Shown: piece by piece, positions 6,326 through 31,520 of the stretch
How the letters are laid out: each line of letters begins with the position of its first letter
Numbering within the stretch: position 1 is the stretch's first letter
Source of the DNA: a virus
Length of the DNA: 36,080 nucleotides
IMG/VR virus record: IMGVR_UViG_3300025816_000037
Span: 1 to 36,080 of that record
Strand: one strand, 5' to 3'
Made by a program: the position numbers and the translations under genes
The notes under the pieces: model-generated
Told to the model about the DNA's origin: nothing
Database searches by the model: none
Seen by the model: only the letters and a program-made list of their open reading frames with translations

Positions 6326-7267
6326 TTAGATTTCCTCCTTAATAGCACGTCCACCTATAGAGAACGCAGCGAGTTCACCAGATTTGACCATATCCCAGAC
6401 GGTATCATCGAATACTTTGTAAGCGACAACCCACCCTTCACGATCAGACTGGATACCAAGAGCATCACCAATTTCTTTAGTGATAGGAAGAGAGTGGACA
6501 ACTACGCCAACTTGATCTCCAACGTGCATAGCCTTGCCGACCCGCACATGCTCCATAAATTCATTAACGGCTTTTACCAGTGTGCCAGCTTCGATAACGT
6601 CACCCTGACGATCAATAACGGCTTCACCTTTTTCTGTAACTACAGAAGCCCATCCGTAGACCATACGCTGTTCGTCGTCAGTCTTAAGGATTTTACCTTC
6701 AATATTCTTTGTCATTTCACCCACCGATGTGTTGGATTCCCACATACGACATGACCAGTAGCCAGCCGTTGTCTTATCTTTCTTGGTATCACAGGAATGG
6801 CGGGAGCGGAAATTGGCACGAGCCTTGGGATCGTCCCTACGGATTTCCATGTTGGGATCACCGAAAGCTACCCGTTTGACCTTGCCACCGTCCTGTACGA
6901 ACACCTCAAACTTCTTGTTGCCACCTTTGATACGACGAGGCTTGTTCAGAGTGACAGTTTCACCTTGATACTCAGCCTTAGCGAAGTCTACCTTTAGTAT
7001 CTCAGCTACAACGGCCCTGAGAGCCTCTATACGGCTCACTGATGGCTCTTCTGCCTCTTCGGTAGGCTCACCCCCTTCGTAGAACGAAATGTACGCCTCG
7101 TGGCTCTCTCCTGGCATGTACACAGCCTGTCCATCGTAGTCAGAGACGTGAGTAGCTCCACCCATGCCTAAGTCCATAGAACGAGAGATAGCTTCTGGCT
7201 CAGTAGTGAAGATGTCGTTAGCGTATTGTGCTTTACGGAGGGTAGATACTTTAGAACCAACTTTCAT
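6326..7267 (-). CDS. Prohead maturation protease (XkdF-like) with extra N-terminal domain
   Basis: A 313-residue protein. The C-terminal half (residues ~200-313) is an XkdF-like serine protease: GKILKTDDEQRMVYGWASVV, DRQGDVIEAGTL, a His in KAMHVGDQVG, and the catalytic-type Ser in AAFSIGGRA. These enzymes process scaffold and capsid in the procapsid. The N-terminal half carries a separate domain with conserved Trp/Cys features (FGDPNMEIRRDDPKARANFRSRHSCD, then YWSCRMW), a module seen in many marine phage proteins; its function is unknown to me. The protein ends abruptly at AIKEEI without the usual LVDRPAN tail, which begins the next gene. It overlaps the upstream gene by one base. Confidence 0.75.
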   Translation of the reverse strand: MKVGSKVSTLRKAQYANDIFTTEPEAISRSMDLGMGGATHVSDYDGQAVYMPGESHEAYISFYEGGEPTEEAEEPSVSRIEALRAVVAEILKVDFAKAEYQGETVTLNKPRRIKGGNKKFEVFVQDGGKVKRVAFGDPNMEIRRDDPKARANFRSRHSCDTKKDKTTAGYWSCRMWESNTSVGEMTKNIEGKILKTDDEQRMVYGWASVVTEKGEAVIDRQGDVIEAGTLVKAVNEFMEHVRVGKAMHVGDQVGVVVHSLPITKEIGDALGIQSDREGWVVAYKVFDDTVWDMVKSGELAAFSIGGRAIKEEI

Positions 7268-16047: not shown

Positions 16048-16103
16048 TGTGTTGGTTCCTTTTATCGGAATTGAAGCGTCATTGCTTAGGAACCATTAAA
16101 GGC

Positions 16104-16111
16104 GATTCGCC
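16104..16111. promoter_or_regulatory. GATTCGCC operator candidate at the cassette promoter
   Basis: Fourth exact copy of the octamer found three times on the other side of the cassette. Its near-palindromic context (GGCGATTCGCC) sits about 15-20 nt after the -10 box, a position where a bound repressor would block transcription. Confidence 0.45.
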
Positions 16112-16127
16112 GGGTATTGCAAGCCCT

Positions 16128-16156
16128 ATTATATAGAGAAGGCATTTTTATGTCGC
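16128..16156 (-). promoter_or_regulatory. Sigma70-like promoter of the accessory cassette
   Basis: GCGACA, 17 nt, TATAAT on the minus strand: a perfect -10 with a -35 matching 4 of 6 positions. It lies ~80 nt upstream of the first cassette gene. The GGCGATTCGCC near-palindrome (16101-16111) overlaps the expected transcription start, which suggests repressor control. Confidence 0.6.
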
Positions 16157-16225
16157 ATTTAAGGGATTGACTCGCATAGAGCGCGGGGAATCAATTTTAT
16201 GGGTTGGAGTGACCGGGAATCCTTT

Positions 16226-16258
16226 CGGGCTTAAAACGGGCTTAAATCGGGTTTCAGG
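16226..16258. repeat. Three 11-base tandem repeats in the cassette leader
   Basis: CGGGCTTAAAA, CGGGCTTAAAT and CGGGTTTCAGG in direct tandem at 16226, 16237 and 16248. Between the two promoter candidates. Period 11 is close to one helical turn; a protein-binding site is possible. Confidence 0.4.
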
Positions 16259-16317
16259 CCCTATGGACTCCCATAACGAATCGCGCTAAATAATGGGGGA
16301 TGCCGAATCAAAACTTA

Positions 16318-16346
16318 GTTATGCGTTTTGTGCATACCTATGTCAA
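16318..16346 (-). promoter_or_regulatory. Possible second sigma70-like promoter
   Basis: TTGACA, 17 nt, CATAAC on the minus strand. Perfect -35, -10 matches 4 of 6. It would give a ~270-nt leader before the first cassette gene. Weaker case than the 16128-16156 promoter. Confidence 0.35.
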
Positions 16347-16440
16347 TTTTTGCATAGCTTATTGGCCGAGAACGAATCATAAACAAAAAACTTAGGTAAA
16401 TATGAAAGAGTCAATAGTATATTTCAGCTTGACAGATTCG

Positions 16441-16488
16441 TTGTAAAAATGCCACGTTGCAAGAATGTCACGTTGTAAAAATACCACA
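16441..16488 (+). repeat. Three 16-base direct repeats
   Basis: Units start at 16441, 16457 and 16473: TTGTAAAAATGCCACG, TTGCAAGAATGTCACG, TTGTAAAAATACCACA. Exactly contiguous. This is the first of four tandem arrays placed end to end before the early operon; together they are the best origin candidate of the window. Confidence 0.65.
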
Positions 16489-16495
16489 CCCGATT

Positions 16496-16598
16496 GTATA
16501 CCAAAGTATACGCAAGTATACCATCGTATACCATCGTATACGTTAATCGCATACTGTCGCATACCATCGTATACCATCGCATACTATCGTATACGGTC
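16496..16598. repeat. Ten GTATAC/GCATAC units with 10-base period (iteron-like)
   Basis: Hexamers begin at 16496, 16506, 16516, 16526 and 16536, then after a 13-base step at 16549, 16559, 16569, 16579 and 16589. GTATAC is itself a palindrome. Two blocks of five at one helical turn each would put all sites on one face of the DNA. Typical of iteron or operator arrays. Confidence 0.75.
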
Positions 16599-16600
16599 TT

Positions 16601-16680
16601 ATATAAGTATATCCATATATAAGCATATAAACATATACAAATATTCGAATATAAGCATGTGTTTATATAAGCGATCACTC
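16601..16680 (+). repeat. Five 16-base AT-rich repeats (ATATAAGC type)
   Basis: Units begin at 16601, 16617, 16633 (degenerate), 16649 and 16665, each opening with ATATAAG(C/T) or ATATACAA. Strongly AT-rich. Directly beside the iteron-like array, which is the arrangement of a DNA unwinding element at a replication origin. Confidence 0.65.
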
Positions 16681-16684
16681 ATGT

Positions 16685-16810
16685 ACCCCCTCCAGTGGAA
16701 AATGACCCCCACAGTGGAAAATGAGAGTCACCCCATCAGTGGAAATAATTCTGTTGACCCCACCAGTGGAAAATGCGAGAGTGATTCTATAAGTTGACCC
16801 CCACCGTGGG
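16685..16810 (+). repeat. Five CCCC-nn-CAGTGGAAAATG repeats before the early operon
   Basis: Copies of CAGTGGA are at 16693, 16712, 16737 and 16764 with a degenerate one near 16804 (CCGTGGGAA), each preceded by CCCC. The spacing is irregular (19, 25, 27, ~41). The fourth copy sits where a -35 box would be for a TATAAG hexamer at 16788-16793. The first early gene starts at 16828, so an activator or operator array of the early promoter is likely. Confidence 0.55.
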
Positions 16811-16827
16811 AATTAAGGAGAAATACA

Positions 16828-17118
16828 ATGGAAAATATCTTAGCAGAACTTAAGGCAATCATGCAGGACGCACAGGAAGCGTCAGCCCGTGCAGGGGAAT
16901 ATAAGAACGACATTGATCGTGGTATCAACGTCAACCACACGCCAGAATATGATACGTCTGTCACCAAGCAGGACAAGATCAACAGCCTATTCGAGTATCT
17001 AATAGATGCTAAGGATGACATGGATCGTGTGAAAGATAGCCTGAAAGACATCCACGATAAACTTGACGACCTCCTTGAGTTAGTAGAGTATGAGAATATA
17101 GCAAAGGGGATTCGCTGA
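16828..17118 (+). CDS. First early protein, helical, unknown
   Basis: A 96-residue, strongly helical and acidic protein. Residues ~50-90 (NSLFEYLIDAKDDMDRVKDSLKDIHDKLDDLLELVEYE) look like a coiled coil. AAGGAG precedes the ATG. First gene downstream of the composite repeat region, thus probably the first phage protein made. Early small proteins often take over host functions; nothing here shows which. Its stop shares a base with the next start (TGATG). Confidence 0.7.
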   Translation: MENILAELKAIMQDAQEASARAGEYKNDIDRGINVNHTPEYDTSVTKQDKINSLFEYLIDAKDDMDRVKDSLKDIHDKLDDLLELVEYENIAKGIR

Positions 17119-17276
17119 TGGAAATTCGTGAGACATACTATGAACTATACCTTGATGGAACTTTATACCACGAGGGAACATTAAAAGATTGTACAGAATA
17201 TGCACAACGCGCTCTTGACGATGATTGTGCTGAGGTGTACAAGGTAACTGTAACAGAAGAAAAGGTAGTAATCTAA
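17118..17276 (+). CDS. Small acidic protein
   Basis: A 52-residue protein (MEIRETYYELYLDGTLYHEG...). Strands near residues 1-17 and 40-50, acidic in between (DDDCAEVYKV). It overlaps the preceding and following genes by one base each, so it belongs to one translated unit. No family recognised. Confidence 0.62.
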   Translation: MEIRETYYELYLDGTLYHEGTLKDCTEYAQRALDDDCAEVYKVTVTEEKVVI

Positions 17277-17566
17277 TGGGAAAAGTAAACGCACTATTTC
17301 AAGACGCAGAAGAGCAAGCGTTTGATCGTTACACTAACATCTTGGTCGATGCTGATGTTGAGATGATGTTTCACTGTGGTGAGATTGAGAAGTTCCGCAT
17401 CTGTAATATCCCTTGTGTTTGGGTCTGGGACGAAAGCTCAAGGGAAGCAGCAGAATACTGGGCTGCATTGGATCACATCAGTGAGAACTATACCTTCGAT
17501 TGGATGTCGGTTAAATCTTGGTCGGGTTCACCAGTTAAGGTTGACACACCTGAGCGAATCAATTAG
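17276..17566 (+). CDS. Hypothetical early protein
   Basis: A 96-residue acidic protein with several Trp (VWVWDESSREAAEYWAALDH, FDWMSVKSWSG). Start overlaps the previous stop (TAATG). No recognised family. Codon use matches its neighbours. Confidence 0.62.
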   Translation: MGKVNALFQDAEEQAFDRYTNILVDADVEMMFHCGEIEKFRICNIPCVWVWDESSREAAEYWAALDHISENYTFDWMSVKSWSGSPVKVDTPERIN

Positions 17567-17594
17567 AACCGTAAGTGGAAATAAGGAGAACCAC

Positions 17595-17750
17595 ATGAAC
17601 CAATTCGCACTAGCAACTGAGGTCAATGGTATCGTAATGCGACTTGCGTTACCCACCATGACAAAGCTACAGGCTGAACAGAAGGCCAAGGTACTACGGG
17701 AGCTATCTCCCAAGACACCAATATATGTCGTTAACAAAACAGCGGAGTAA
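17595..17750 (+). CDS. Small hypothetical protein
   Basis: A 51-residue protein from the ATG at 17595 (MNQFALATEVNGIVMRLALP), preceded by AAGGAGAACCAC. The same frame is open far upstream but the ribosome binding site fixes this start. The short form MTKLQAEQKAKVLRELSPKTPIYV is helical then extended. No family recognised. Confidence 0.62.
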   Translation: MNQFALATEVNGIVMRLALPTMTKLQAEQKAKVLRELSPKTPIYVVNKTAE

Positions 17751-17755
17751 TTGAT

Positions 17756-18064
17756 ATGACACTAGATACACGCATGGTAAGCATGGTACTGGCAGAGAAC
17801 GCTAACGAGTTCATCACCGTTAAGTTCCTGACCAAAGATAACGAGGAGCGTACATACAATGGTCGCTTGAACGTCAAGAAATACCTTGTGGGTGGTGAAC
17901 GTGGTCGTAAGGCTGCTGACGTTCTAAAGGCTCACAACCTGATCCCCATGTTCGTGGGTAAGGATGGTGAGAAGCCCAAGTACAAGAGCTTCTGTCTTGA
18001 CCGTGTGCTGGCTATGAAGGCTGGCGGTCGTCACATCTTTGCTATGGGCAGTGAGATCGAATGA
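17756..18064 (+). CDS. SH3-like beta-barrel protein
   Basis: A 102-residue protein. FITVKFLTKDNEERTYNGRLNVKKYLVGG, then HNLIPMFVGKDGEKPKYKSFCLDRVLAMKAGG. The pattern of a short strand, KDG.ER, RLNVKK, then YKSF.LDRVL.IKA is what I recognise from phage proteins with an SH3-like barrel. Role unknown; such proteins may bind a protein partner. Its stop overlaps the next start as ATGA. Confidence 0.55.
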   Translation: MTLDTRMVSMVLAENANEFITVKFLTKDNEERTYNGRLNVKKYLVGGERGRKAADVLKAHNLIPMFVGKDGEKPKYKSFCLDRVLAMKAGGRHIFAMGSEIE

Positions 18065-18456
18065 CACCCCTTTTGTGTCTTGCAGCAGCGGTCTTCTTTG
18101 AGAGCCGTAGTGAACCTCTGGAAGGACAGAGGGCCGTTGCTGAGGTCGTTATGACTAGGGTAGAATCACCCCGTTGGCCCGACGAAATCTGTGCCGTTGT
18201 CTTCCAACACAAGCAGTTCTCGTTCACCCACGATGGAAAATCTGATAACTATCACAAGTACAATGGCAATGTATTCGACAGACAAGCGATTGATATAGCT
18301 GAGACAATAGCTAAGTCAGTGCTAAAAGGTGATCGTATTGGCTTGACTTCTACCCACTATCATACTATCTCAGTATCACCATATTGGGCCAAAAGTTACC
18401 ACCGAGATGGTCGCATTGGCACACACGTTTTTTACACAGCACCCGAAGGGAAATGA
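18061..18456 (+). CDS. Cell wall hydrolase (SleB-like)
   Basis: A 131-residue protein. Residues 7-30 (LAAAVFFESRSEPLEGQRAVAEVVMTRV) hold the catalytic Glu (~14) and the conserved E.EGQ.AVA.V..NR motif of the Hydrolase_2 (SleB/CwlJ) family; the C-terminal part (SPYWAKSYHRDGRIGTHVFYT) is the typical W....GTH.FY ending. The family cleaves peptidoglycan. It sits in the early region, far from the holin, and no signal peptide is obvious. Either it is a second endolysin or it works on the wall during entry or early infection. Overlaps the previous gene as ATGA. Confidence 0.8.
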   Translation: MTPLLCLAAAVFFESRSEPLEGQRAVAEVVMTRVESPRWPDEICAVVFQHKQFSFTHDGKSDNYHKYNGNVFDRQAIDIAETIAKSVLKGDRIGLTSTHYHTISVSPYWAKSYHRDGRIGTHVFYTAPEGK

Positions 18457-18458
18457 GA

Positions 18459-18617
18459 ATGTTTAACATGACACTTGAGAAACACTTGGAAGAGATGGGT
18501 ATCCGTCCCAAGTCAATCATCCGTGAGCTAGAGGAACTCCTTGATCCACGTCTGACGTATCTGGCGAAGGGTTACTTCAATGACCCCCGCAGTAGAAATG
18601 GAGAGGTGCCGTTCTAA
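18459..18617 (+). CDS. Small acidic helical protein
   Basis: A 52-residue protein from the ATG at 18459 (MFNMTLEKHLEEMGIRPKSI). An ATG at 18453 overlaps the hydrolase stop; I prefer 18459 because AAGGG lies about 8 nt before it. Two helices, EELLDPRLTYLAKG, then a flexible tail. Unknown family. Confidence 0.6.
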   Translation: MFNMTLEKHLEEMGIRPKSIIRELEELLDPRLTYLAKGYFNDPRSRNGEVPF

Positions 18618-18796
18618 TGAATACGATCTTTATACTAATATGGTTTGTCGTTATTCCTGAGACTGGCGTAAGGTATTACCACTTGGGAACGTATGATAAT
18701 GAAACCATGTGCGGGACTGCACTGAGGGATGCTTCGGTTATGGTCAATGATAAACAAGAGACAATCGAATGTATAGGAGTACAGGTAGATGATTAA
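18617..18796 (+). CDS. Small protein with hydrophobic N-terminus
   Basis: A 59-residue protein. Residues 1-13 (NTIFILIWFVVIP) are hydrophobic, then a polar domain with two Cys (GTYDNETMCGTALRDASVMVNDKQETIECIG). Possibly a small secreted or membrane-tethered protein. Starts on the previous stop (TAATG) and overlaps the ThyX start by 8 nt. Confidence 0.58.
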   Translation: MNTIFILIWFVVIPETGVRYYHLGTYDNETMCGTALRDASVMVNDKQETIECIGVQVDD

Positions 18797-19442
18797 AGCA
18801 TTTTACGTTCAACACGCTGGCTCTGACCTTATGGTCGTAAACAGTGCTAGGGTATCATTTGGTAAGCGTAGTGAGATGGAGGATGATCTTTGGGGGCCAC
18901 CTAAGCTAAAGGAGAAGGACGCTAAGTTGATCCGATACCTTGCCAAGCATAACCACATCAGCCCCTTTAACCACACATGGGTTACGTTCCAATGTCGTGC
19001 GCCTATGTTTGTAGCACGGCAACTCCAGAAACACGAGTATATGCCTTGGAATGAAATATCTAGGCGCTACACAACTGAAAATATTCAGTTTTATGAGCCA
19101 GAGGTGTGGCGGGGTAAATCTGAGGACAAGAAGCAAGGGTCTGATGGTGTCGTTAACATTCAGTTAGACCAAGAGGTACAGTGGCACAGACAGTTCCAGA
19201 CGTATCAGACGCTAATTGACGAGGGTGTAAGCCCAGAGATGGCTCGTATGGTACTACCCCAGAGTATGTACACTGAGTGGTTCTGGAGCGGAACGGTAGG
19301 GGCCATAGCGAAGATGTGTAACCTACGCTGTAAGCCTGATACACAGGCGGAGACACGCATTGTAGCTGACCAGATCAGTGAGAAGATGAAAGAGTTGTTC
19401 CCAGTTTCTTGGGCAGCATTATTGGAGGAGAAAGACCAATGA
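18789..19442 (+). CDS. thyX: Flavin-dependent thymidylate synthase
   Basis: A 217-residue protein. The signature is RQLQKHEYMPWNEISRRY (~77-94), which is the phage form of the ThyX RHRxxS motif (R-Q..KH..x..NE.SRRY). It makes dTMP from dUMP using FAD, NADPH and methylenetetrahydrofolate. With the class II RNR and MazG further down, it forms the phage's nucleotide supply. Starts within the end of the preceding small gene. Confidence 0.92.
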   Translation: MIKAFYVQHAGSDLMVVNSARVSFGKRSEMEDDLWGPPKLKEKDAKLIRYLAKHNHISPFNHTWVTFQCRAPMFVARQLQKHEYMPWNEISRRYTTENIQFYEPEVWRGKSEDKKQGSDGVVNIQLDQEVQWHRQFQTYQTLIDEGVSPEMARMVLPQSMYTEWFWSGTVGAIAKMCNLRCKPDTQAETRIVADQISEKMKELFPVSWAALLEEKDQ

Positions 19443-19672
19443 AACCTGACGTTACGCAAAAACAACAAGTACTTAACCACTTACAAAATAACCCTGATGG
19501 GTTCACCTCTTGGGAAGCAATCAGTCAATATGGTATTACCCGTTTAGCTGCTTATATTGGTTTCTTGAGGAATGATGGATATGGTATTAACTCGGTAACA
19601 GAAACCCGTAACGGAAAGGCAATTGCCAGATACTTCTTGGTTACAGGTGAAGAGGAGAATGGTGATGGCTAA
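19439..19672 (+). CDS. Winged helix-turn-helix protein
   Basis: A 77-residue protein from the ATG at 19439 ([47 protein letters not shown]), overlapping the ThyX stop as [40 protein letters not shown] is a helix-turn-helix followed by a wing (ARYFLVT). A DNA-binding regulator or accessory protein of the early region is the natural reading; the target is unknown. Confidence 0.7.
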
Positions 19673-19877
19673 ACTGTATGACTTAGAGCCAATGATAATG
19701 GACTGTTGGCACGTCTGTGATGACCTACAGGTTGTCTTTAGGCAGATCGGTGACGGTGAACGTGAGCCTACGCACGATGAAATGATGAACACCTTGATGG
19801 GTATGCAACAGCTATACGAGTGGAAGTTTGAGCAGTTGTTCTTCAAGTATGAGGAGGTATTCCGTGATAAACAGTGA
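19665..19877 (+). CDS. Small helical protein ([11 protein letters not shown] family)
   Basis: A 70-residue protein from the ATG at 19665, with GAGGAG about 7 nt before it. [25 protein letters not shown] ... [23 protein letters not shown] is a small all-helical protein that I have seen in many phages without an assigned function. It overlaps the previous gene by 8 nt. Confidence 0.62.
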
Positions 19878-19923
19878 GTGGCGAAAGTTGATAGCAGAAC
19901 AAGAGAACTTTAAGGAGAACGTA

Positions 19924-20175
19924 ATGGCAGAGCATACAGCAGACATCGTGAATGAACCTAAGCACTACGCACGGTGGAAGATCGAACCTATCACATACAT
20001 TATGATGAATGGCTTTGAGTTCTGGCGTGGGAATATCATCAAGTATGCCAGTCGTGCAGGGTACAAGCCCTACGAGGGAATGAGTAAGGCTCAGTGCGAG
20101 ATCACAGACCTTGAGAAGGTCATCCGCTATGCACAAATGCGTATCAATCAACTGGAGGGTAAGGACAAGCTATGA
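19924..20175 (+). CDS. DUF3310-like protein
   Basis: An 83-residue protein from the ATG at 19924, which has a perfect AAGGAG at the right spacing. Core NEPKHYARWKIEPITYIMMNGFEFWRGNIIKYASRAG is the DUF3310 pattern (P.HY....EPI..I........F..GN.IKY..R.G.K). The family is common in phages and named nucleotide kinase in some annotations without proof. A GTG at 19864 in the same frame also has a GAGGAG site, giving a 20-residue longer form; see findings. Confidence 0.75.
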   Translation: MAEHTADIVNEPKHYARWKIEPITYIMMNGFEFWRGNIIKYASRAGYKPYEGMSKAQCEITDLEKVIRYAQMRINQLEGKDKL

Positions 20176-20315
20176 CTAGAGAAGAGCTAAAGAAAATCAT
20201 AAAGGCTTTGGATAAGTCTGAGGATGTCACAGTCGAGGAAGCTGTGTATCTGATCCGAAAGAGACAGCGGGAGTTAGAAAACTTGGAGGTAGAGTATGAG
20301 CTTAACTGGGCCTGA
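20172..20315 (+). CDS. Small charged helical protein
   Basis: A 47-residue protein (MTREELKKIIKALDKSEDVTVEEAVYLIRKRQRELENLE). Starts as ATGA on the DUF3310 stop and runs 20 nt into the sigma-factor gene, so it may be translationally coupled to it. No family recognised. Confidence 0.58.
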   Translation: MTREELKKIIKALDKSEDVTVEEAVYLIRKRQRELENLEVEYELNWA

Positions 20316-20874
20316 GATCGTAGGTATGTGCGAGAAGTTAGCCAACAGGTTTAACTCTCCCTCACACCGTGATGACATGGTACAAGAGGGTGTACTAAAG
20401 TGTTACGAGATATTGGCTGACGATGAGAAGGTACATCCAGCGCACCTCTACAGGGAGGCTAAGAGGCGTATGCACGATTACCTTAACCTTGATGTGCTAC
20501 CTGTTACAGTACCAGCGCACAATATTTCCCGTAGGCTCACACACGACATAGACGACAGTGAGGTGGGTAATATGTCTGAGGTTGGTCATAAGTGGCTAAA
20601 GTCTGTTTTGTCGTCTAACTCTGGTCAATACAGTGATGAACACAATGGCTCAGAGAAAGATCATACTGAAAGATATGAGAATAAGGAGTTCGTAAGATAT
20701 GTCATAAATGTGGCGATAGAAGAATTAACGGCAGAAGAATGGAGTGTTCTTAAGTTACGTTATTACAGCGACATGACACAACATGAGGTGGCGGATATGT
20801 TAGACAAACACCAGAAGTGGGTGTCACGAAGGGAGGACACTGCCTTAACTAAGTTACGAAAGTCAGTTCTGTAA
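20296..20874 (+). CDS. Phage RNA polymerase sigma factor
   Basis: A 192-residue protein with the two-domain form of small sigma factors. Region 2 is near residues 26-41 (DDMVQEGVLKCYEILA), where core RNA polymerase and the -10 box bind. Region 4 is at ~144-190 (LTAEEWSVLKLRYYSDMTQHEVADMLDKHQKWVSRREDTALTKLRKS), a helix-turn-helix that reads the -35 box. The gene ends 10 nt before a copy of the bipartite promoter motif, and is the last gene of the first early block. It is the natural factor for the three promoter copies. Confidence 0.85.
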   Translation: MSLTGPEIVGMCEKLANRFNSPSHRDDMVQEGVLKCYEILADDEKVHPAHLYREAKRRMHDYLNLDVLPVTVPAHNISRRLTHDIDDSEVGNMSEVGHKWLKSVLSSNSGQYSDEHNGSEKDHTERYENKEFVRYVINVAIEELTAEEWSVLKLRYYSDMTQHEVADMLDKHQKWVSRREDTALTKLRKSVL

Positions 20875-20884
20875 CAATTCGTGA

Positions 20885-20914
20885 TGTCTAAGAATTAAAA
20901 AAGTATCCCTATAG
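20885..20914 (+). promoter_or_regulatory. Phage promoter copy P2 (replication block)
   Basis: TGTCTAAG, 10 nt, GTATCCCTATAG, just downstream of the sigma-factor gene and 76 nt upstream of the next ATG (20991). Same spacing as the copies at 13596 (minus) and 25796 (plus). It would start transcription of the primase-helicase and polymerase block. Confidence 0.75.
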
Positions 20915-20990
20915 GTAAGTGTAGGGTTTACATAAGTTATGACTTTAGTTACTTCTACTATTAGTTATAACATAAGAAAGGAACGTAAGT

Positions 20991-21782
20991 ATGGACGATG
21001 ATGACTACTACGACATGGTGATGAGTAAATCTTCTGATGTCGTTATGCACTCTTGGGAAGATTGCATACATGGCTTCAAGCAAGCCGATGTTGACATGGG
21101 CAGTGCTTTCCACAGAAAGTTGGAATGGATGAACAAAGCGGCTGATATTTACCTATCAGATAACAGTAAGATGGCAGGGTTTGTCGGTAAGTTTTCTAAG
21201 GATTGTGGTATATCTAAGGACTACGCTTACAAAATTAATAGGGCAAGAAAATTGCAGTGGACTGCAAAAAACTTTAGTCATGATGCTGTAGAGGCACTTT
21301 TGTCAGCCCCAGAGGAATTGCGTGATGAGATTGTGTCGTTAGATAAACCCGTAACTGTTGCAGAAGTACAGCAAGCTAAGGCAGGGTACAAAGAGGTACA
21401 AGAGAACCCTGACTACGGTGACATACTTGAAGACGTTAAAGAGAAACGAAAGACCCCTGTAGAGGCTGCTAGGGAGGCTTGGGATCGTTCAGAAGAGAAA
21501 CGAAGGGAGATGGAGAATAATCCGAATGTGTTTGACTTAAATGCTCACGTCAAAAGTACAGAGCATTGCACCGTAGATGTATCAGCAACTAACCTTGTTG
21601 TAGCTATGGAACAGTTAATCAGTAAGTTTGATAGGCGTGACGTTATGATGTACCTATACTCAGCTATACATGATGATGTCGTAAATATCAAAATACCGGC
21701 ACTACATGAGATGTCCGACATCTTGATAGAGCTATGTGAACAGTTGCCACTCGAAGGCACAAACAAACAAAACTTAAGCTAG
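20991..21782 (+). CDS. Hypothetical protein, first gene after promoter P2
   Basis: A 263-residue protein. The first 20 residues are very acidic (MDDDDYYDMVM). Residues ~65-90 (KFSKDCGISKDYAYKINRARKLQW) look like a helix-turn-helix, the middle is charged and helical (YGDILEDVKEKRKTPVEAAREAWDRSEEKRREME), and a C-terminal domain (VAMEQLISKFDRRDVMMYLYSAI) follows. No family recognised. The HTH-like segment and its first position after the sigma-type promoter suggest a DNA-binding or regulatory role, perhaps at the iteron-like array. This is inference only. Confidence 0.6.
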   Translation: MDDDDYYDMVMSKSSDVVMHSWEDCIHGFKQADVDMGSAFHRKLEWMNKAADIYLSDNSKMAGFVGKFSKDCGISKDYAYKINRARKLQWTAKNFSHDAVEALLSAPEELRDEIVSLDKPVTVAEVQQAKAGYKEVQENPDYGDILEDVKEKRKTPVEAAREAWDRSEEKRREMENNPNVFDLNAHVKSTEHCTVDVSATNLVVAMEQLISKFDRRDVMMYLYSAIHDDVVNIKIPALHEMSDILIELCEQLPLEGTNKQNLS

Positions 21783-21793
21783 GAGACCCGACA

Positions 21794-22141
21794 ATGAGCT
21801 ATTACCAACAGACACTCGACTTATTTGAACTCAATGATCGTAAGCCAATGGGAGTTAACTTACTTATCCGTCAGGGTGCAAGGAACATTCGTGCGTCAGA
21901 TGCTAACGTGGTCAGAGCGCACGTTTGGAAGCACCAACGTGATGACATGGAAGCACTGCTTAACACTACGTTTCATTCTTACGAGCTTGACCGTCAGATG
22001 ACTATGCGCTGGCTTCTTGACAATGAGGCTGACGTTTTCTTTGGTCAGAGGGATGCGGAGATAGAAAAGGGCCAAGGTCGTGTAAAGATGAACCACCTGT
22101 ACAAAGAAGTAGGGTACAAGTATCTGATAGGTTCTAAGTAA
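21794..22141 (+). CDS. Hypothetical protein in replication block
   Basis: A 115-residue protein: MSYYQQTLDLFELNDRKPMGVNLLIRQGARNIRASDANVVRAHVWKHQRDDMEALLN. Mostly helical, with TMRWLLDNEADVFFGQRDAEIEKGQGRVKMN. GGAGACCCGACA precedes the ATG. No family recognised. Its place before primase-helicase suggests a replication accessory role. Confidence 0.6.
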   Translation: MSYYQQTLDLFELNDRKPMGVNLLIRQGARNIRASDANVVRAHVWKHQRDDMEALLNTTFHSYELDRQMTMRWLLDNEADVFFGQRDAEIEKGQGRVKMNHLYKEVGYKYLIGSK

Positions 22142-22159
22142 AACAAAGGAGAGTAACCA

Positions 22160-22327
22160 ATGGAAAAAGACCTAGAGAAATACTGCATGAAGATGATGGA
22201 CATATATGGCGGAACTTATACCATCGACTATGACCTAAAGGTAGTAGCTATCTACAAGGGAGACACTCAAGATTTAGATGTCCTATCCTTTGATGAAGCC
22301 CTAGAAGAACTACGAGAAGCAGCGTAA
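22160..22327 (+). CDS. Small hypothetical protein before primase-helicase
   Basis: A 55-residue protein (MEKDLEKYCMKMMDIYGGTYTIDYDLKVVAIYKGDTQDLDVLSFDEALEEL). AAGGAGAGTAACCA precedes the ATG. Strand-strand-helix pattern. No family recognised. Confidence 0.6.
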   Translation: MEKDLEKYCMKMMDIYGGTYTIDYDLKVVAIYKGDTQDLDVLSFDEALEELREAA

Positions 22328-22345
22328 ACCCAAGGAGAGAGCCAC

Positions 22346-23920
22346 ATGGCTGAACATGCACACCAACCCTGTCCATATGAAACGTGTGGCTCCTCCGATG
22401 CCTTCAGTTATAACACTGAGGGTTTCGGCAAGTGCCACGCTTGCAACCAAGGCTACCCGTCCAGTGGAAAAACATTCGGGTGGGCTAAAGAAAAGTACCC
22501 AACAAAAGGAGGGAATAATTTGTCGTTTACACCAAAAGCTGTTGTTTCGTTTACACCAGAAGATACGTCCGATGGAAAATACGCTAACATGCGTGGCATC
22601 AACAGCAAGACGATGGAGGACTTCGGTGTCCTAACCTACGAAGATCGTCAGGAGTATGTGTACCCCAGCGGGGGAATTAAAGTTCGTAAGCTAGACGAGA
22701 AAGGCTTCTACGCTAAAGCAGGTTTCAAGGGTGATGAACTCTTCGGTATGAACTTCTTTACCGCAGGTAGTTCCAAGATGGTAACTATCACTGAGGGTGA
22801 ACTAGACGCCCTCTCAGTGGCACAAATACTCAAGAGCGGGTACACCAACCCAGTTGTGTCGTTACCCTCTGCTACGCCCTCCAAGAAGCTCTGGGAGAAC
22901 TGTGCGGATTGGCTCAATAGTTTCGAGAAGATCATCCTGTCGGTTGACAATGATGACGCTGGTAACGCTCTTGCTGACCGTGTAGCAAAGCTGTTCCCCA
23001 ACAAGGTCTATCGTGTTGACCATCGACCATACAAAGATGCCAATGAGTTCCTACAGGCAGGTAAAGCCGCTGACTTCAAGAGTGCATGGTGGAACGCCCG
23101 TAAGTTCACACCTGAGAATGTGATGAACAGCACACAGGACTTCTTGTCGTTGTACAAGGATACACCTGAGTTCCAGTATGTACCAACAGGTATCCAAGCG
23201 TTAGACGATAAGATCATGGGTCTCATGCAGGGTCACTTCACGGTAATCAAAGCACCCACGGGTATCGGCAAGACGGAGATCATGCGGTTCCTTGAGTACA
23301 ATATGTTACAACGTGAGGTTCCTATTGCTGCATGGCACTTGGAGGAAACAAAGCTACGATCACTGTTAGGTCTCGTGTCATACGAATGTAATGACAATCT
23401 TACACGCAGGGATTTGATTGATGAGAAAGGCGCAGAGGATCAGGTGATTGATGCTATCGGTAAACTGACGAAGGACGAGAACTTTTACCAGTTTTACCTT
23501 AGTGATGGTCAAGGTGCTGACGATCTGATCGACCAGATACGTTACTTCGCTGTAGCTTGTGGTGTTAAGTTTGTATTCTTTGAGCCTATCCAAGATGTGC
23601 TTGTGGGTTCATCTGACGAGAGCAAAGAGCAAATGTTGGCTGATCTATCGGTGCGACTATCGAAGCTATCGGCTGAGTTAAACGTAGGTATCGTAACTAT
23701 CGCTCACACTAACGATGATGGTCAGATGAAATACTGTCGTATGATCGGTCAACGTGCTTCGGTTATCATCGACTTGAAACGCGACAAAGAGGCTGATGAT
23801 ATACAGGAGCGTAACACAACGTACCTGTCTATTGAAAAGAACCGACCCTGTTCAGAAGAAGGTAACGCAGGGATGATGCGGTTTAACACTGACACCTTCA
23901 CACTTACAGAGGTAATGTAA
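22346..23920 (+). CDS. DNA primase-helicase (T7 gp4-like)
   Basis: A 524-residue fusion of primase and helicase. The N-terminus has a zinc motif (CPYETCGSSD ... CHACNQG, ~residues 9-35). TOPRIM elements are EGELDALS (~150) and SVDNDDAG (~198). The RecA-like helicase has Walker A APTGIGKTEIM (~302) and the FVFFEPIQ Walker B segment (~408), with the Gln-type motif near TIAHTND. It would unwind DNA at the fork and make the primers used by the family A polymerase next door. Confidence 0.9.
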   Translation: MAEHAHQPCPYETCGSSDAFSYNTEGFGKCHACNQGYPSSGKTFGWAKEKYPTKGGNNLSFTPKAVVSFTPEDTSDGKYANMRGINSKTMEDFGVLTYEDRQEYVYPSGGIKVRKLDEKGFYAKAGFKGDELFGMNFFTAGSSKMVTITEGELDALSVAQILKSGYTNPVVSLPSATPSKKLWENCADWLNSFEKIILSVDNDDAGNALADRVAKLFPNKVYRVDHRPYKDANEFLQAGKAADFKSAWWNARKFTPENVMNSTQDFLSLYKDTPEFQYVPTGIQALDDKIMGLMQGHFTVIKAPTGIGKTEIMRFLEYNMLQREVPIAAWHLEETKLRSLLGLVSYECNDNLTRRDLIDEKGAEDQVIDAIGKLTKDENFYQFYLSDGQGADDLIDQIRYFAVACGVKFVFFEPIQDVLVGSSDESKEQMLADLSVRLSKLSAELNVGIVTIAHTNDDGQMKYCRMIGQRASVIIDLKRDKEADDIQERNTTYLSIEKNRPCSEEGNAGMMRFNTDTFTLTEVM

Positions 23921-23923
23921 AAT

Positions 23924-25771
23924 ATGACAGCAGTATATGACATTGAAACAGACGGTCTATTAGATGAGTTGACCAAGATTCATGTCTTGTCTTATTCAGA
24001 TGATGGTAAGACGGTACATCACACGCACGACTACGATGAAATGCGTGAGTTCTTTGCCACACGCAAAGTTCTAGTTGGTCACAATCATGTGCGCTTTGAC
24101 ATCCCAGCGGTGGAAAAGGTTTTAGGCATCAAGGTAAAGGCTCGTTTGATCGACACTCTAGCTTTATCTTGGTATCTACACCATGACCGTATGAAGCATG
24201 GCCTTGAGGGCTACGGAGAGGACTATGGAGTACCCAAACCAGTTATCAAGGACTGGAACACCCTGACACCACAAGAGTACGCTCACAGGTGCGATGAGGA
24301 CGTTAAGATCAACAATCGTCTTTGGCGTGACTTAGAGCTTAAGCTCAACAAGCTGTACAAAGATGCAGAGGCAGATAAGGATCGTCTGATCGACTACCTT
24401 ACATTCAAGCTAGACTGTGCTAAAGAGCAAGAGACCCTGCGGTGGAAATTGGACGTAGACAAAGCTCAAGCAGCCTACGACGAGATCATGGCACTTAAGG
24501 TAGAGAAGGTTGAGCAACTGGCTGATGCTATGCCTAAGCGTACACTCACTCGTGTAGCAGCACGACCAAAGGTTATGCACAAGAAAGACGGTGAGTTATC
24601 CTCTCACGGTCAACGATGGGTGGAACTATGTAAGGAGTGCAAGCAACCTGAGACAACCATGCAGTTTGTCGTTAAGACAGGCGAAGAGCGTGGGAACCCT
24701 AACTCTAACGATCAGGTCAAAGACTGGCTCTATTCGTTAGGTTGGAAACCACGGACATATAAGTTTACTAGAGATAAGGCGACAGGCGATGAACGACAGA
24801 TTGAACAAGTTAGAAAGAATGGGGAGTTATGCTCAAGTGTCAAAGAGCTTGCAGAGGTTGACCCTGCTGTTGACCTTCTTGATGGCCTTACAGTTCTTAC
24901 TCACCGTGCTGGTATTCTTAAGAGTTTCTTAGAGTGCCACAAGGATGGTTGGCTAGAGGCTAGTATCGCAGGGCTAACGAACACCTTTCGGTTCAAGCAC
25001 TATCGACCCTTGGTTAACCTTCCAGGAGTAGATAAGCCATACGGTGATGTTATCCGTGGGTGTCTAACGTGTCCTGATGGCTACCTGTTAGCTGGTGCTG
25101 ACATGACATCATTGGAGGACACAACTAAGCGTCACTATATGAAACCACTAGACCCTGACTATGTGGAGGCCATGAGTAAAGAGGGCTTTGACCCACACTT
25201 AGACTTGGCTCTACACGCTGGTGTTATCACTCAAGATGACATCGACAAACATAATTCTGGGGAGCGTTCACTCAAAGCCCTCCGTAAGAATTACAAGGTG
25301 GTTAACTATAGTGCTACATACGGTGTAGGAGCGCCTAAGCTGGCCCGTGAGACAGGTATGAGTAAGTCTGAGGCTAAGAAGCTACTGGAAGCCTTCTGGT
25401 CTCGTAACTGGGCTATTGAGAAGGTAGCAAGCTCGTTGCGTGTCCGTGAGTTGTTCAACGGTATGTGGCTTAAGAACCCCGTTTCAGGCTTCTGGTATAG
25501 CTTACGCAGCGACAAGGATCGTTTCAGTACGCTCAACCAAGGTACTGGTGTCTACTGCTTTGACACTTGGGTTAAGGAATGTCGTGGTATGGGACTAGAG
25601 ACTATCGGTCAGTTCCACGATGAGATCATCGTTATAACAAAAGAAGGGGACGAAGATAAGACAGAAAACATCATGCAGATGAGCATGAACAATGTAAACC
25701 ACGAGATAAATCTAAACGTACCGCTAGGGACAGACGTACAATTTGGGAAGACTTACGCTGACATTCACTAA
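23924..25771 (+). CDS. DNA polymerase, family A (T7-like)
   Basis: A 615-residue protein. The N-terminal domain is a 3'-5' exonuclease (VYDIETDGL at residues 4-12, then VRFDIPAVEKVLG and HRCDEDVKI). The polymerase has motif A LLAGADMTSLED (~388-398), motif B RKNYKVVNYSATYGVGA (~450-466) and motif C QFHDEIIV (~563-570). The motif A with SLED instead of the usual SxIELR is common in marine phage polymerases. It lacks the 5' nuclease of bacterial PolA, which is supplied by the separate gene at 26620. Confidence 0.92.
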   Translation: MTAVYDIETDGLLDELTKIHVLSYSDDGKTVHHTHDYDEMREFFATRKVLVGHNHVRFDIPAVEKVLGIKVKARLIDTLALSWYLHHDRMKHGLEGYGEDYGVPKPVIKDWNTLTPQEYAHRCDEDVKINNRLWRDLELKLNKLYKDAEADKDRLIDYLTFKLDCAKEQETLRWKLDVDKAQAAYDEIMALKVEKVEQLADAMPKRTLTRVAARPKVMHKKDGELSSHGQRWVELCKECKQPETTMQFVVKTGEERGNPNSNDQVKDWLYSLGWKPRTYKFTRDKATGDERQIEQVRKNGELCSSVKELAEVDPAVDLLDGLTVLTHRAGILKSFLECHKDGWLEASIAGLTNTFRFKHYRPLVNLPGVDKPYGDVIRGCLTCPDGYLLAGADMTSLEDTTKRHYMKPLDPDYVEAMSKEGFDPHLDLALHAGVITQDDIDKHNSGERSLKALRKNYKVVNYSATYGVGAPKLARETGMSKSEAKKLLEAFWSRNWAIEKVASSLRVRELFNGMWLKNPVSGFWYSLRSDKDRFSTLNQGTGVYCFDTWVKECRGMGLETIGQFHDEIIVITKEGDEDKTENIMQMSMNNVNHEINLNVPLGTDVQFGKTYADIH

Positions 25772-25795
25772 TGTGAAAATAAATATCAAAAGTAG

Positions 25796-25825
25796 TGTCT
25801 AAAATCCCGAAATGTATCCCTATAG
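25796..25825 (+). promoter_or_regulatory. Phage promoter copy P3 (ssDNA-binding protein block)
   Basis: TGTCTAAA, 10 nt, GTATCCCTATAG, then TATA. 48 nt upstream of the ssDNA-binding protein start. The 17-mer TGTATCCCTATAGTATA is identical to that in the late-operon copy at 13596. It lies in a ~100-nt intergenic gap after the polymerase gene. Confidence 0.75.
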
Positions 25826-25873
25826 TATATTACCAGTGCTGCAAACCAGCAGCTTAAACAGAGGAAGAGTAAG

Positions 25874-26416
25874 ATGGCTAAACACACAATGGACATGGTT
25901 CTTGAGTACCCGAGAGTGTTTGAAGAAAACCGAGATATGGGCGGGGATAAAAATAGCGCCGCAAAGAAAGCTGCAAGGCATAACGGGCAGTACGTTGTTA
26001 ACGCATACTTCACCAGCGAAGAGCAGATAGAGGAACTGCTTCAAGCTGGGATGGAACCTAAGCCCCTTGGCAACGACCGAGTAAAGGAGGGCAATAGTTT
26101 TGGGATTGGTAAGTTCGTTAAGTTAGCACGGATGCACGATCACAAGATGACATTCAGTGATAAGAACGGGAAGGAGACTGAGGTAGACTTCGGTGGTGCG
26201 CCAAAGGTAGTCAACCTAACTAACGGGGCCGAGAACAAGACTTGGTGGTCGTTAGAAGAAGATGGGGAGCTAGGTAACGGCACACGAGCTAAGGTGCAGT
26301 TTGAGACCTACTCAAACGGTGCGGGTTTACGGCTACTTGCTGTTGGTGTAACAGACCATGTGTCTTACGAGGGTGCAAGCCCTAGTGAAGACGACGAACT
26401 ATTTATGGTGGATTAA
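25874..26416 (+). CDS. ssDNA-binding protein (T7 gp2.5-like)
   Basis: A 180-residue protein. A likely OB-fold core ends with GNGTRAKVQFETYSNGAGLRLLAVGVTDHVSYEG, and the acidic C-terminal tail (SPSEDDELFMVD) is typical of phage and bacterial SSBs that contact polymerase and helicase. It coats single-stranded DNA at the fork. It is the first gene after promoter P3, so it can be strongly expressed. Confidence 0.85.
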   Translation: MAKHTMDMVLEYPRVFEENRDMGGDKNSAAKKAARHNGQYVVNAYFTSEEQIEELLQAGMEPKPLGNDRVKEGNSFGIGKFVKLARMHDHKMTFSDKNGKETEVDFGGAPKVVNLTNGAENKTWWSLEEDGELGNGTRAKVQFETYSNGAGLRLLAVGVTDHVSYEGASPSEDDELFMVD

Positions 26417-26418
26417 AT

Positions 26419-26619
26419 ATGAGAGTAGACATAAACTTTTACTACGACAAGGAAGAGGATGGCATCGAAGGTTCTTCCAGCGCATCACGAGATGGTGTCT
26501 TCGATCTCTACACAATGTCTCAGTTCCTAGCTGATGCTATGCGAGGTGCAGGTTACAGTTATGTAACTGACGTAGGGTTCGAGAAGGACGATGGTACAGT
26601 CACCTTCGGGGAGATGTAA
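26419..26619 (+). CDS. Small hypothetical protein
   Basis: A 66-residue, acidic protein (MRVDINFYYDKEEDGIEGSSSASRDGVFDLYTMSQFLADAMRGAGYSYVTDVGFEKDD). Starts 2 nt after the SSB stop and ends one base before the GTG start of the exonuclease gene. No family recognised; the short strand at 1-9 followed by a Ser-rich loop and a helix is all that can be said. Confidence 0.6.
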   Translation: MRVDINFYYDKEEDGIEGSSSASRDGVFDLYTMSQFLADAMRGAGYSYVTDVGFEKDDGTVTFGEM

Positions 26620-27327
26620 GTGAGCAAAGGCAAAGTTCTAATCGACGGTGACATCATAGCCTATCGTGCAGCCTTTGCCACTCAAGACCTTACTGAAAGA
26701 GATGCGGAAGAGAAGGTTGATGATCTCATTGAGTACATCTTAGATCAGACCATTGATCTTCCCTTCCCATCTCCAGAGGACTACGAAACGTACCTAACTG
26801 GTAAGACAAATTTTCGACATGACATTGCTAAATCCCACCCGTACAAGGGAAATAGGAACGCATCAGAAAAGCCAAAGTATTTAGGTACGACACGAGAGCA
26901 TATGGTTAATAACTGGGATGCTATCGTTAGTGTCAACGAAGAGGCTGATGATCTAATATCAAAGGGGGCGGCAGAGACAGGGTATAACTGTGTTGTTGCA
27001 TCTGTTGATAAAGATATGCTACAGCTTCCTTGTTGGCACTTTAACTTCGTAAAAGGTGAGTGGACTAAGGTTGACGAGTGGTCAGGTATCAAGTTCTTCT
27101 ATACGCAAATCCTAACTGGTGACGCTGCTGATAACATAAAGGGTCTACATCGTGTAGGGCCAAAGACATCAGAGAAGATGCTGGCACATTGTGAAACAGA
27201 AGAAGACCTCTGGGAAACGTGTGTTAAGGCTTACGATGGCGACACAGAGAGGGTGATAGAAAATGCGAGGTTACTATGGCTAAGGCGGTACGAGGATCAG
27301 CTATGGGAGCCACCTCAAGGGGCATAA
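26620..27327 (+). CDS. 5'-3' exonuclease (FEN-type)
   Basis: A 235-residue protein with a GTG start immediately after the preceding stop. Features are VLIDGDIIAYRAAF (residues ~6-19), EEADDLISKGA (~108) and SVDKDMLQ (~127), then GDAADNIKGLHRVGPKTSEK (~167-186), the helix-hairpin-helix that binds DNA behind the metal site. This is the free-standing flap/5' nuclease that phages use to remove RNA primers. It overlaps the endonuclease gene. Confidence 0.9.
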   Translation: MSKGKVLIDGDIIAYRAAFATQDLTERDAEEKVDDLIEYILDQTIDLPFPSPEDYETYLTGKTNFRHDIAKSHPYKGNRNASEKPKYLGTTREHMVNNWDAIVSVNEEADDLISKGAAETGYNCVVASVDKDMLQLPCWHFNFVKGEWTKVDEWSGIKFFYTQILTGDAADNIKGLHRVGPKTSEKMLAHCETEEDLWETCVKAYDGDTERVIENARLLWLRRYEDQLWEPPQGA

Positions 27328-27692
27328 AGCATGGCTATCGGTCTGGGCTAGAGGATCGTATATCGGAGCAACTAAAGAGCCTTAAAGTACCGTTCAAGTA
27401 TGAGGAGTTCAAGATCAAGTATGAGGTTAACGAGGTTAGAACCTACACACCTGACTTTGAACTCCCCAACGGTATCATTATAGAATCCAAGGGACGGTTC
27501 GTTGCAGCAGACAGAAAGAAACATCTGTTAGTCCAGAAGCAACACCCCGATCTTGACATTCGGTTTGTCTTCTCTAACTCTAAGGCGAAGATAAGCAAAG
27601 GCTCAAAGACTACGTTAGGCATGTGGTGCGATAAGCATGGCTATCTGTACTCAGACAAGTTAATCCCAGAGGAATGGATAAAGGAAACATAA
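27303..27692 (+). CDS. Endonuclease I / Holliday junction resolvase (T7 gp3-like)
   Basis: A 129-residue protein. RSGLEDRI (Glu ~17), YTPDF (Asp ~51) and IIESKG (Glu ~61, Lys ~63) match the four catalytic residues of T7 endonuclease I, and KHLLVQKQHPDLDIRFVFS and YSDKLIPEEWIKE match the end of that family. I prefer the ATG at 27303 (GAGG 7 nt before it; same length as T7 at its N-terminus). An ATG at 27276 also has GAGG and would give a 138-residue form. It resolves branched DNA before packaging. Confidence 0.87.
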   Translation: MGATSRGIKHGYRSGLEDRISEQLKSLKVPFKYEEFKIKYEVNEVRTYTPDFELPNGIIIESKGRFVAADRKKHLLVQKQHPDLDIRFVFSNSKAKISKGSKTTLGMWCDKHGYLYSDKLIPEEWIKET

Positions 27693-28474
27693 TGGCAGGA
27701 AAGACAGTAGTAGTCTTCTCGTGCGCTCACGTTGATCCCAGTGTGAGTAACGAGAGGTTCAACTGGTTAGGGGAGTTCTTGTATGACCTCAAGCCTGATT
27801 ATGTCGTTGACTTGGGTGATGGCGCTGACATGCGGTCATTAAATACATTTGACACTCGTTACCCAGAGGCAATCGTCAGTCAGAGCTACGAGGCAGACAT
27901 TGAACACTACAACGATGCACAAGAGCGTATTCGATGGAAGTTCAGACATCACCGACGAAAACGACCAGCTTACATAGGGTTTGAGGGGAACCATGAGAAC
28001 AGGATTAAGAAAGCTATCAAACACGATCCTCGACTTGAAGGCTCGAAGTATGGCATATCTTTTGACCACCTACAGACGAACAGATGGTTCGATGAGTACC
28101 ACGAGTATGAAAACTCCGCTCCAGCGATTGCTGATTACGATGGGGTCTCATACGCTCACTTCTTTAGTAGTGGCAACTTTGGGTCTGCTATGTCTGGTAT
28201 GCACCATGCTAATGCACTACTGGCTCACAGGCATCATAGTTCTACTTGTGGTCATAGCCATAAACGTGATCTTAAGTTTAAAGACGCTTCGCATCCTAAT
28301 GGAGTTATCGGTTTGGTTGCAGGGTGCTACAAGGGAGCAGCAGAGGGCTGGGCAGGTCAAGCTAACAAAGAGTGGTGGTCAGGCATTGTAGTTAAACGGG
28401 AGGTAGAGGACGGTATGTACGATCCAGAGTTTGTTTCCCAGTCACGACTAAAGGCTATGTATGGGCAAACGTAG
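27692..28474 (+). CDS. Calcineurin-like metallophosphoesterase
   Basis: A 260-residue protein from the ATG at 27692. Motifs are SCAHVD (~residue 10), DLGDGADM (~40), GNHEN (~98) and GHSHK (~189). These are the metal-binding motifs of metallophosphoesterases, but the first shows Cys-Ala-His where Asp-x-His is usual. This Cys variant is a possible real variation of phage members. Its substrate is unknown: DNA ends, RNA or a nucleotide are all possible. Starts at the stop of endonuclease I (TAATG). Confidence 0.78.
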   Translation: MAGKTVVVFSCAHVDPSVSNERFNWLGEFLYDLKPDYVVDLGDGADMRSLNTFDTRYPEAIVSQSYEADIEHYNDAQERIRWKFRHHRRKRPAYIGFEGNHENRIKKAIKHDPRLEGSKYGISFDHLQTNRWFDEYHEYENSAPAIADYDGVSYAHFFSSGNFGSAMSGMHHANALLAHRHHSSTCGHSHKRDLKFKDASHPNGVIGLVAGCYKGAAEGWAGQANKEWWSGIVVKREVEDGMYDPEFVSQSRLKAMYGQT

Positions 28475-29027
28475 TGACTTCGACAGAGTACCGAGGGACT
28501 ACTACCCAACACCAAGGGCAGCAGTTGAACCCCTGATCCCGCACTTGCCTTACTCGTTTGATTACTACGAGCCTTGTGCGGGTGATGGGCGTTTGATAGA
28601 CCATATAGATAGTCTGACGGATGGTCACAGTGAGTGTATCTTTGCTTGTGACATTGAGCCTAGAGACCCAAGGGTTTGCTTACATGATTCCATTAACATG
28701 GGTGAGCAAGACTTCTTGAACTTGTATATGGCTTTCGGTGGTGCTGACTTGTGTATCACCAACCCACCTTGGGATAGAAAACTACTGCACCCATTCATCG
28801 AAGGGTGGATGCAGATGTGTCCAACATGGCTACTCTTTGATGCCGATTGGATGCACACGAAACAGTCAGCTATCTTGATGACCTACTGTGTCAAGGTAGT
28901 GAGCGTAGGCAGGGTCAAATGGATTGAGGATAGTAAGAGCGTAGGTAAAGACAACTGCGCTTGGTATCTGTTCGATATAGCCAGAAACCCCGCTAAACAG
29001 ACAGAGTTCTATGGGAGAACGATATGA
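28461..29027 (+). CDS. DNA N6-adenine methyltransferase-like protein
   Basis: A 188-residue protein. DYYPTPRAAVEPLI (~13), YYEPCAGDGRLID (~35-47, SAM-binding FxGxG-like) and LCITNPPWDRK (~96-106, catalytic NPPW) are the order of gamma-type N6-adenine methyltransferases. It is shorter than typical restriction-modification enzymes and lacks a clear target recognition domain, so it could be an orphan methyltransferase. Specificity cannot be read from the sequence. It overlaps the preceding gene by 14 nt. Confidence 0.82.
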   Translation: MGKRSDFDRVPRDYYPTPRAAVEPLIPHLPYSFDYYEPCAGDGRLIDHIDSLTDGHSECIFACDIEPRDPRVCLHDSINMGEQDFLNLYMAFGGADLCITNPPWDRKLLHPFIEGWMQMCPTWLLFDADWMHTKQSAILMTYCVKVVSVGRVKWIEDSKSVGKDNCAWYLFDIARNPAKQTEFYGRTI

Positions 29028-31475: not shown

Positions 31476-31520
31476 CCAAAGCACCTAAGCAAGTGTATAA
31501 ACTGCTTACTAGGAGAACCC

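Follow-up and report, generated by a model that had tools for sequence, protein, structure and literature searches.

An asymmetric repeat array at the early promoter of a CRP-6-type roseophage and its single sites in early genes: a possible operator/stoperator-like system

Why should a virus line up four different tandem-repeat arrays in the gap between its divergent genes: as an origin of replication, as a control region for the early genes, or for some other purpose? The sequence that raises this question (the window, by which we mean the whole stretch of DNA analysed) is a virus record, linear and 36,080 bases long. It belongs to the CRP-6-type roseophage group, with which it shares primase, polymerase and structural genes; of the named relatives found, Roseobacter phage CRP-6 (MK613348) is the closest, with identities of 74% for the primase, 67% for the polymerase, 91% for the ribonucleotide reductase (RNR) and 82% for the gene at 4094-5074. 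Rightward early genes occupy 16828-32461, flanked on either side by leftward late genes. CRP-6 has the same divergent gap with arrays I and IV and the promoter, but it lacks arrays II and III and carries array I in nine copies; over 78 bases around array I the two genomes are 92.3% identical. Searches of the open-access literature listed no paper that we recognised as describing the arrays of the window, and a term search of the CRP-6 paper (PMC6918029) found neither 'repeat' nor 'promoter'. On the opposite strand, upstream of the array, the window encodes a GP88-family gene (PF17338, 14742-15545), which was also noted for locus L339; a homologue lies near the array in the phage of locus L268.

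All four arrays listed by the first-pass annotation are present (Table 1), and their repeats exceed what shuffling produces: the count observed for each motif within 16048-16827 (three for I, eleven for II including a stray copy at 16332, four for III and, with a strict pattern, four for IV) was matched in none of 2000 dinucleotide shuffles of that region, and TRF coverage amounts to 233 bases compared with at most 36 in 100 shuffles. Array I consists of three 16-mers as described, although the coordinates originally given to it (16441-16488) are one base too high. The ten units of array II were correctly placed in two blocks of five, with G[T/C]ATAC starts at 16496, 16506, 16516, 16526 and 16536 and, after the 13-base step, at 16549, 16559, 16569, 16579 and 16589. 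The five repeats claimed for array III resolve into exact ATATAAG copies at 16601, 16617, 16649 and 16665 and a degenerate copy at 16633, and the last array indeed has five units, which start at 16688, 16707, 16732, 16759 and 16799.

Table 1. Coordinates of the control region, its arrays and promoter, the single class-IV sites and a candidate regulator in the window
Feature	Start	End	Strand	Remark
Divergent intergenic control region	16048	16827	.	houses arrays I-IV and 12 GANTC sites
Array I, three contiguous 16-mers GTTG(C/T)AA(A/G)AAT(A/G)(C/T)CAC	16440	16487	+	
Array II, ten GTATAC/GCATAC units	16496	16594	+	period 10, one 13-base step
Array III, AT-rich ATATAAG(C/T)	16601	16671	+	16-base period, five copies of which one is degenerate
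Array IV, five asymmetric 17-base units CCCnnCAGTGGAAA(A/T)(A/T)(G/A)	16688	16815	+	
Early promoter, TTGACC-17-GAGAGT then GATTC (GANTC site)	16754	16787	+	TTGACC at 16754-16759
Single class-IV site in early gene 18061-18456	18226	18242	+	14.2 bits
Single class-IV site between early genes	18585	18601	+	14.0 bits
192-residue sigma-70/ECF-like protein	20296	20874	+	candidate regulator only
Single class-IV site, 111 nt into primase-helicase gene	22457	22473	+	16.1 bits
Single class-IV site in primase-helicase gene	22565	22581	+	12.1 bits
Single class-IV site in DNA polymerase gene	24103	24119	+	17.9 bits
Single class-IV site in DNA polymerase gene	24435	24451	+	22.4 bits
Single class-IV site in early gene 29024-29380	29125	29141	+	13.6 bits
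Single class-IV site in early gene 31521-31757	31689	31705	+	13.9 bits

Arrays I-III are swapped or lost between relatives whose primases are 99% identical. The conserved promoter pattern identified 110 viral stretches, and 126 upstream regions, reduced to 95 once identical copies had been removed, were scanned for tandem repeats. Pattern matching in the 86 regions with enough sequence found array I alone in 27, a GGAACGAATCA family alone in 18, I, II and III together in five, no array family in 12 and eleven other combinations in the remainder; besides array IV, ten families occur across the relatives. The loci L048, L049, L051 and L122, with primases 99.0-99.8% identical, carry arrays II, I+II+III, II and II+III, respectively, which is hard to reconcile with iterons read by a dedicated initiator.

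This exchange bears directly on the proposal that the gap contains a classical origin, in which one or more arrays would serve as iterons for an initiator, array III as the unwinding element and same-strand sites as marks of fork polarity or of lagging-strand priming. The layout does resemble an iteron origin in its head-to-tail direct repeats adjoining an AT-rich array, and the GC skew reaches its minimum at about 16 kb, which could mark an origin of some other kind close by; however, the skew tracks the gene strand and the minimum coincides with the switch in gene strand. The comparison with related genomes that the first-pass annotation had suggested as a check went against it, as arrays I-III come and go at 99% primase identity and are exchanged among phages whose replication proteins are the same, and a stretch of 60 bases reaching 75% AT lies upstream in only 22 of 82 relatives. 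Neither an unwinding element nor an initiator is conserved: the 263-residue protein (20991-21782) put forward as an array binder has no homologue among the other five genomes of the CRP-6 type that were tested, and the only homologue of the 77-residue HTH protein (19439-19672), likewise proposed, is in cobavirus ICBM2. Cobaviruses share the primase-helicase and have none of the arrays in the intergenic stretches examined. The origin was consequently rejected as the main reading, and we consider it unlikely; of the annotation's alternative 'origin or early control', it is early control that finds support, and for array IV.

Arrays I-III might rather be exchangeable upstream platforms for other, putative DNA-binding proteins. 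Among 580 Fisher tests for co-variation between array families and genes, the top associations listed concern family V, mainly within one clade, and the associated frames are short or derived from the array; no cognate gene emerged from these associations. Neither the single sites of class I (47 to 21 between the strands at 14 bits) nor those of class II (2 to 3) have a strand bias comparable with that of the class-IV sites described below; those of class V do, at 33 to 3. Other upstream elements were seen in individual relatives. In locus L159 a 26-base TTTTACTGATAATATTTACCTGTAAC unit is repeated about 13 times upstream of 4240, ahead of the same promoter, and L046 (970-1100) and L129 hold arrays of palindromes such as ATGTTTACGCTAACAT, which we take to resemble LacI-family operators.

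Array IV, unlike arrays I-III, is the constant part of the control region. A class-IV cluster is present in 11 of the 12 loci that were selected by primase and have at least 6 kb of upstream sequence (the exception being L068). Over 94 regions chosen by the promoter pattern, the class-IV profile finds 470 units, with four to six per region in 84 of them. In every one of the 94 a unit begins at +4/+5 counted from the T of TTGACC, a position that the search pattern partly presets for the spacer unit, and further units lie at -19 to -22 in 71 cases and at +42 to +47 in 52. In 80 loci selected for tandem class-IV units alone, TTGACC is joined directly to a unit in 44. The window follows the same arrangement, since its unit at 16759 falls in the promoter spacer, between the -35 and -10 elements. 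The profile has 17 columns with information from -2 to +16 and no dyad; a palindromic operator was considered and rejected, as the list of variants is without paired changes across two arms. Palindromes similar to GTTATAnTATAAC were observed near early promoters in the intergenic regions of L035, L077, L096, L146, ICBM2 and CRP-4. Around 3498-3535 in L318 the class-IV unit reads TTTCCACCGGAGGGGCCATG on the opposite strand and overlaps a likely ribosome-binding site. In L303, a phage with a terminase gene whose host is probably a member of the Bacteroidota, as guessed from gene context, seven tandem class-IV units are followed by one single site downstream, and a long array of CTGTT(A/C)TGG-type 9- to 10-mers (6630-7160) directly precedes the seven.

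Class-IV units are not confined to the array. At 12 bits the window contains eight single class-IV sites, all on the early strand and spread from 18226 to 31689, and none in its late genes; the first-pass annotation had not noticed these sites, which lie outside its 370 bases. Across 61 loci (155 dereplicated at 95% primase identity) the single sites number 214 on the early strand to 1 on the other, with 0, 1 and 0 in the three cobaviruses, which have the primase and replication genes in common. When reading frame and position were analysed, leaving out five of the 61 loci (the three cobaviruses, L340 and L321), 156 of 213 single sites were found inside ORFs of at least 80 amino acids. These intragenic sites occupy all three frames (65/62/29) at a median of 191 nt from the ORF start, or 21% of ORF length, and neither a conserved -10 element downstream nor any flank conservation beyond -2 to +16 accompanies the single sites.

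In two genomes, the window and CRP-6, the single sites are under selection inside coding sequence. The early genes of the window contain seven coding-strand sites of at least 12 bits compared with 0.12 expected from synonymous-codon shuffling, and those of CRP-6 three compared with 0.30, values that none of 400 shuffles reached in either case; the template strand of the same genes has none, nor do the late genes tested (28 in the window, 23 in CRP-6). Together with the use of three frames, the synonymous shuffles rule out a protein motif, and the offset of the site within the primase gene, which differs from phage to phage, also favours selection on the DNA over selection on the protein. Promoters for a phage sigma factor were ruled out as well, because the -10 is not conserved.

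What rule governs the orientation of the sites? Six CRP-6-type genomes (four contigs besides the window and CRP-6) contain 31 single sites; 28 are sense and three antisense, yet all 31 are on the strand of the array, which a rule based on transcription does not predict. The phage of L268, which has a different primase and replication module and shared tail genes, carries its array and all four of its single sites on one strand, antisense to the genes, and L318, L324, L311, L286 and L294 likewise have class-IV sites opposite to the main coding strand. Over these seven genomes, 35 of 35 single sites therefore lie on the array's strand whatever the direction of the genes, and in 80 loci all but eight of the 536 class-IV sites share the majority strand of their locus, the exceptions being in L257, L262, L265, L278, L283, L289, L296 and L331. 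That antisense sites are kept on the array's strand argues for the stronger rule of one strand per genome; transcription accounts for it within the CRP-6 group only, and the polarity of class-IV sites may not be about transcription. The rule speaks for an origin, where fork movement would impose it, although the near absence of single sites from the late half of near-complete genomes does not.

The observations to be explained are an array placed at the promoter, single sites with a strand bias, and the selection acting on those sites within the genes of two genomes; we hold with about even confidence that array and sites form an operator array and a set of oriented sites controlling the early genes in an operator/stoperator-like manner. 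Array IV would then act as the operator at the early promoter and as the dense cluster that heads a set of asymmetric sites extending genome-wide. A putative protein, probably encoded by the phage, is proposed to bind class-IV units; bound between the -35 and -10 elements it would block initiation, and on the same-strand single sites it may stop or tune the elongating polymerase, so that the two effects combined could shut off early transcription.

The closest parallel is provided by the repressors of cluster A mycobacteriophages, which, in passages of PMC9283540 and PMC6550527, are described as binding, as monomers, more than 20 asymmetric 13-mers that are located at promoters and in short intergenic spaces and oriented with transcription; reversed sites give no repression. 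The likeness to L5 and its relatives lies in a short asymmetric site that is repeated (five array units and eight single sites in the window), in its presence at the early promoter, where the window has a unit in the spacer, and in the strand bias that it has in CRP-6-type loci. There are also differences. The class-IV promoter has an array of four to six copies; most class-IV single sites are intragenic, whereas the L5 stoperators are described as lying in short intergenic spaces; and in other phages class-IV sites are antisense (none of the four in the L268 phage is sense).

A further difference concerns the regulator itself, for no repressor homologue or lysogeny gene was seen for class IV among the proteins scanned. 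No cognate repressor was named among them by PHROGs, Pfam or NCBIfam, and the lack of an integrase or lysogeny gene in the same set puts the purpose of a repressor in doubt. A candidate regulator is the 192-residue protein of Table 1, which passes the NCBIfam sigma70-ECF cut-off (70.5 compared with 42.9 bits), has sigma factors as its best solved relatives and, alone among the early-strand proteins tested, is found in each of the other five CRP-6-type genomes while being absent from the three cobaviruses. The recognition helix of the protein is not the same in the window and in CRP-6, and we therefore do not name it as the binder.

The control region is also rich in GANTC, and the upstream arrays together with these sites might bring in factors of the host (GcrA bound to CcrM-methylated DNA, for instance) to activate the early promoter, with array IV as a part of that activation. 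The 12 sites in the 780 bases of the control region (16048-16827) compare with 1.66 expected at the density of the window, which has only 77 GANTC (CcrM) sites in all; relatives average 7.2 per 400 bases compared with 2.15, and 76 of 82 exceed their own density. The GGAACGAATCA family found alone in 18 of the 86 regions is itself an array of GANTC sites, one every 11 bases, and GANTC follows immediately after 32 of the 44 promoters joined to a unit. Nevertheless, several array families are without GANTC, and recruitment of host factors leaves the single class-IV sites inside genes unexplained. As an account of the arrays it is improbable; the enrichment points to a possible further layer of host methylation-dependent control.

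Protection against mobile DNA offers a different way to explain sites that keep to one strand independently of genes. Many unrelated phages might carry interchangeable one-strand cassettes of tandem sites for mobile or defensive DNA-binding machines (e.g. AAA+-type transposases) as protection or decoys that form no inverted, cuttable pair, and the window would then contain four such cassettes, of which array IV has also been incorporated in the early promoter and dispersed across the early genes; we regard this as quite unlikely. The narrower version, in which the units mimic the multiple terminal repeats of IS21- or Tn7-like elements and shield phage DNA through target immunity or titration of the transposase, seems a shade more doubtful still. 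It supposes a single orientation because inverted ends would form a mobile unit. Passages of PMC10122671 describe IS21 ends as multiple direct terminal repeats in which GC-rich contacts flank an AT-rich core, and PMC11208146 cites early work on IS21 immunity. Class-IV units contain a similar AAAATGACCC motif and resemble the end repeats of IS21 seen in Rhodobacterales plasmids (TTCCAAAAATGACCCC and similar); the array families are many and exchangeable, and phages that resemble the window little or not at all also have class I and IV motifs. The resemblance to IS21 ends is suggestive by eye, but at 35 IS21 loci the class-IV profile gives no significant match (lowest p 0.043 in 35 tests, with the longest ORF taken as IstA, wrongly for some loci), and no element with class-IV repeats was found. 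Tandem class IV occurs at only three places in genome contigs, two of which are coding repeats; the 17-mer with one mismatch gives five single hits in 385 alphaproteobacteria (reversed control 0), none scoring 12 bits; tandem class I is absent from all 398 genomes searched; and a search of PLSDB plasmids with the arrays of the window and of CRP-6 matched nothing at E up to 1. The 18 array-bearing records contain no rve transposase, 528 of the 536 class-IV sites of the 80 loci share a majority strand, unlike an inverted pair of ends around istA/istB, and mimicry of transposon ends explains neither the unit in the promoter spacer nor the bias towards gene starts. Least probable, and in our view very unlikely, is that the arrays are packaging or genome-end signals marking a terminus: cobavirus ICBM2 has a terminal repeat annotated at the same genomic place, in its homologous intergenic region, and in L318/L324, L311 and L268 the units adjoin the tail gene family phrog_1924 (in L324 near the terminase), but such signals account for neither the promoter-spacer unit nor the single sites in early genes.

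Control of the early genes through operator- and stoperator-like sites is thus the reading that we prefer, and a promoter array combined with one-way sites inside genes would constitute a stoperator-like system outside the actinobacteriophages. Its carriers are marine phages of an abundant and apparently lytic group, and the class-IV site is defined well enough for its protein to be fished out. The upstream region, for its part, amounts to a natural collection of ten or more swappable arrays, which could reveal the factors of the host or of rival elements that these phages must handle.
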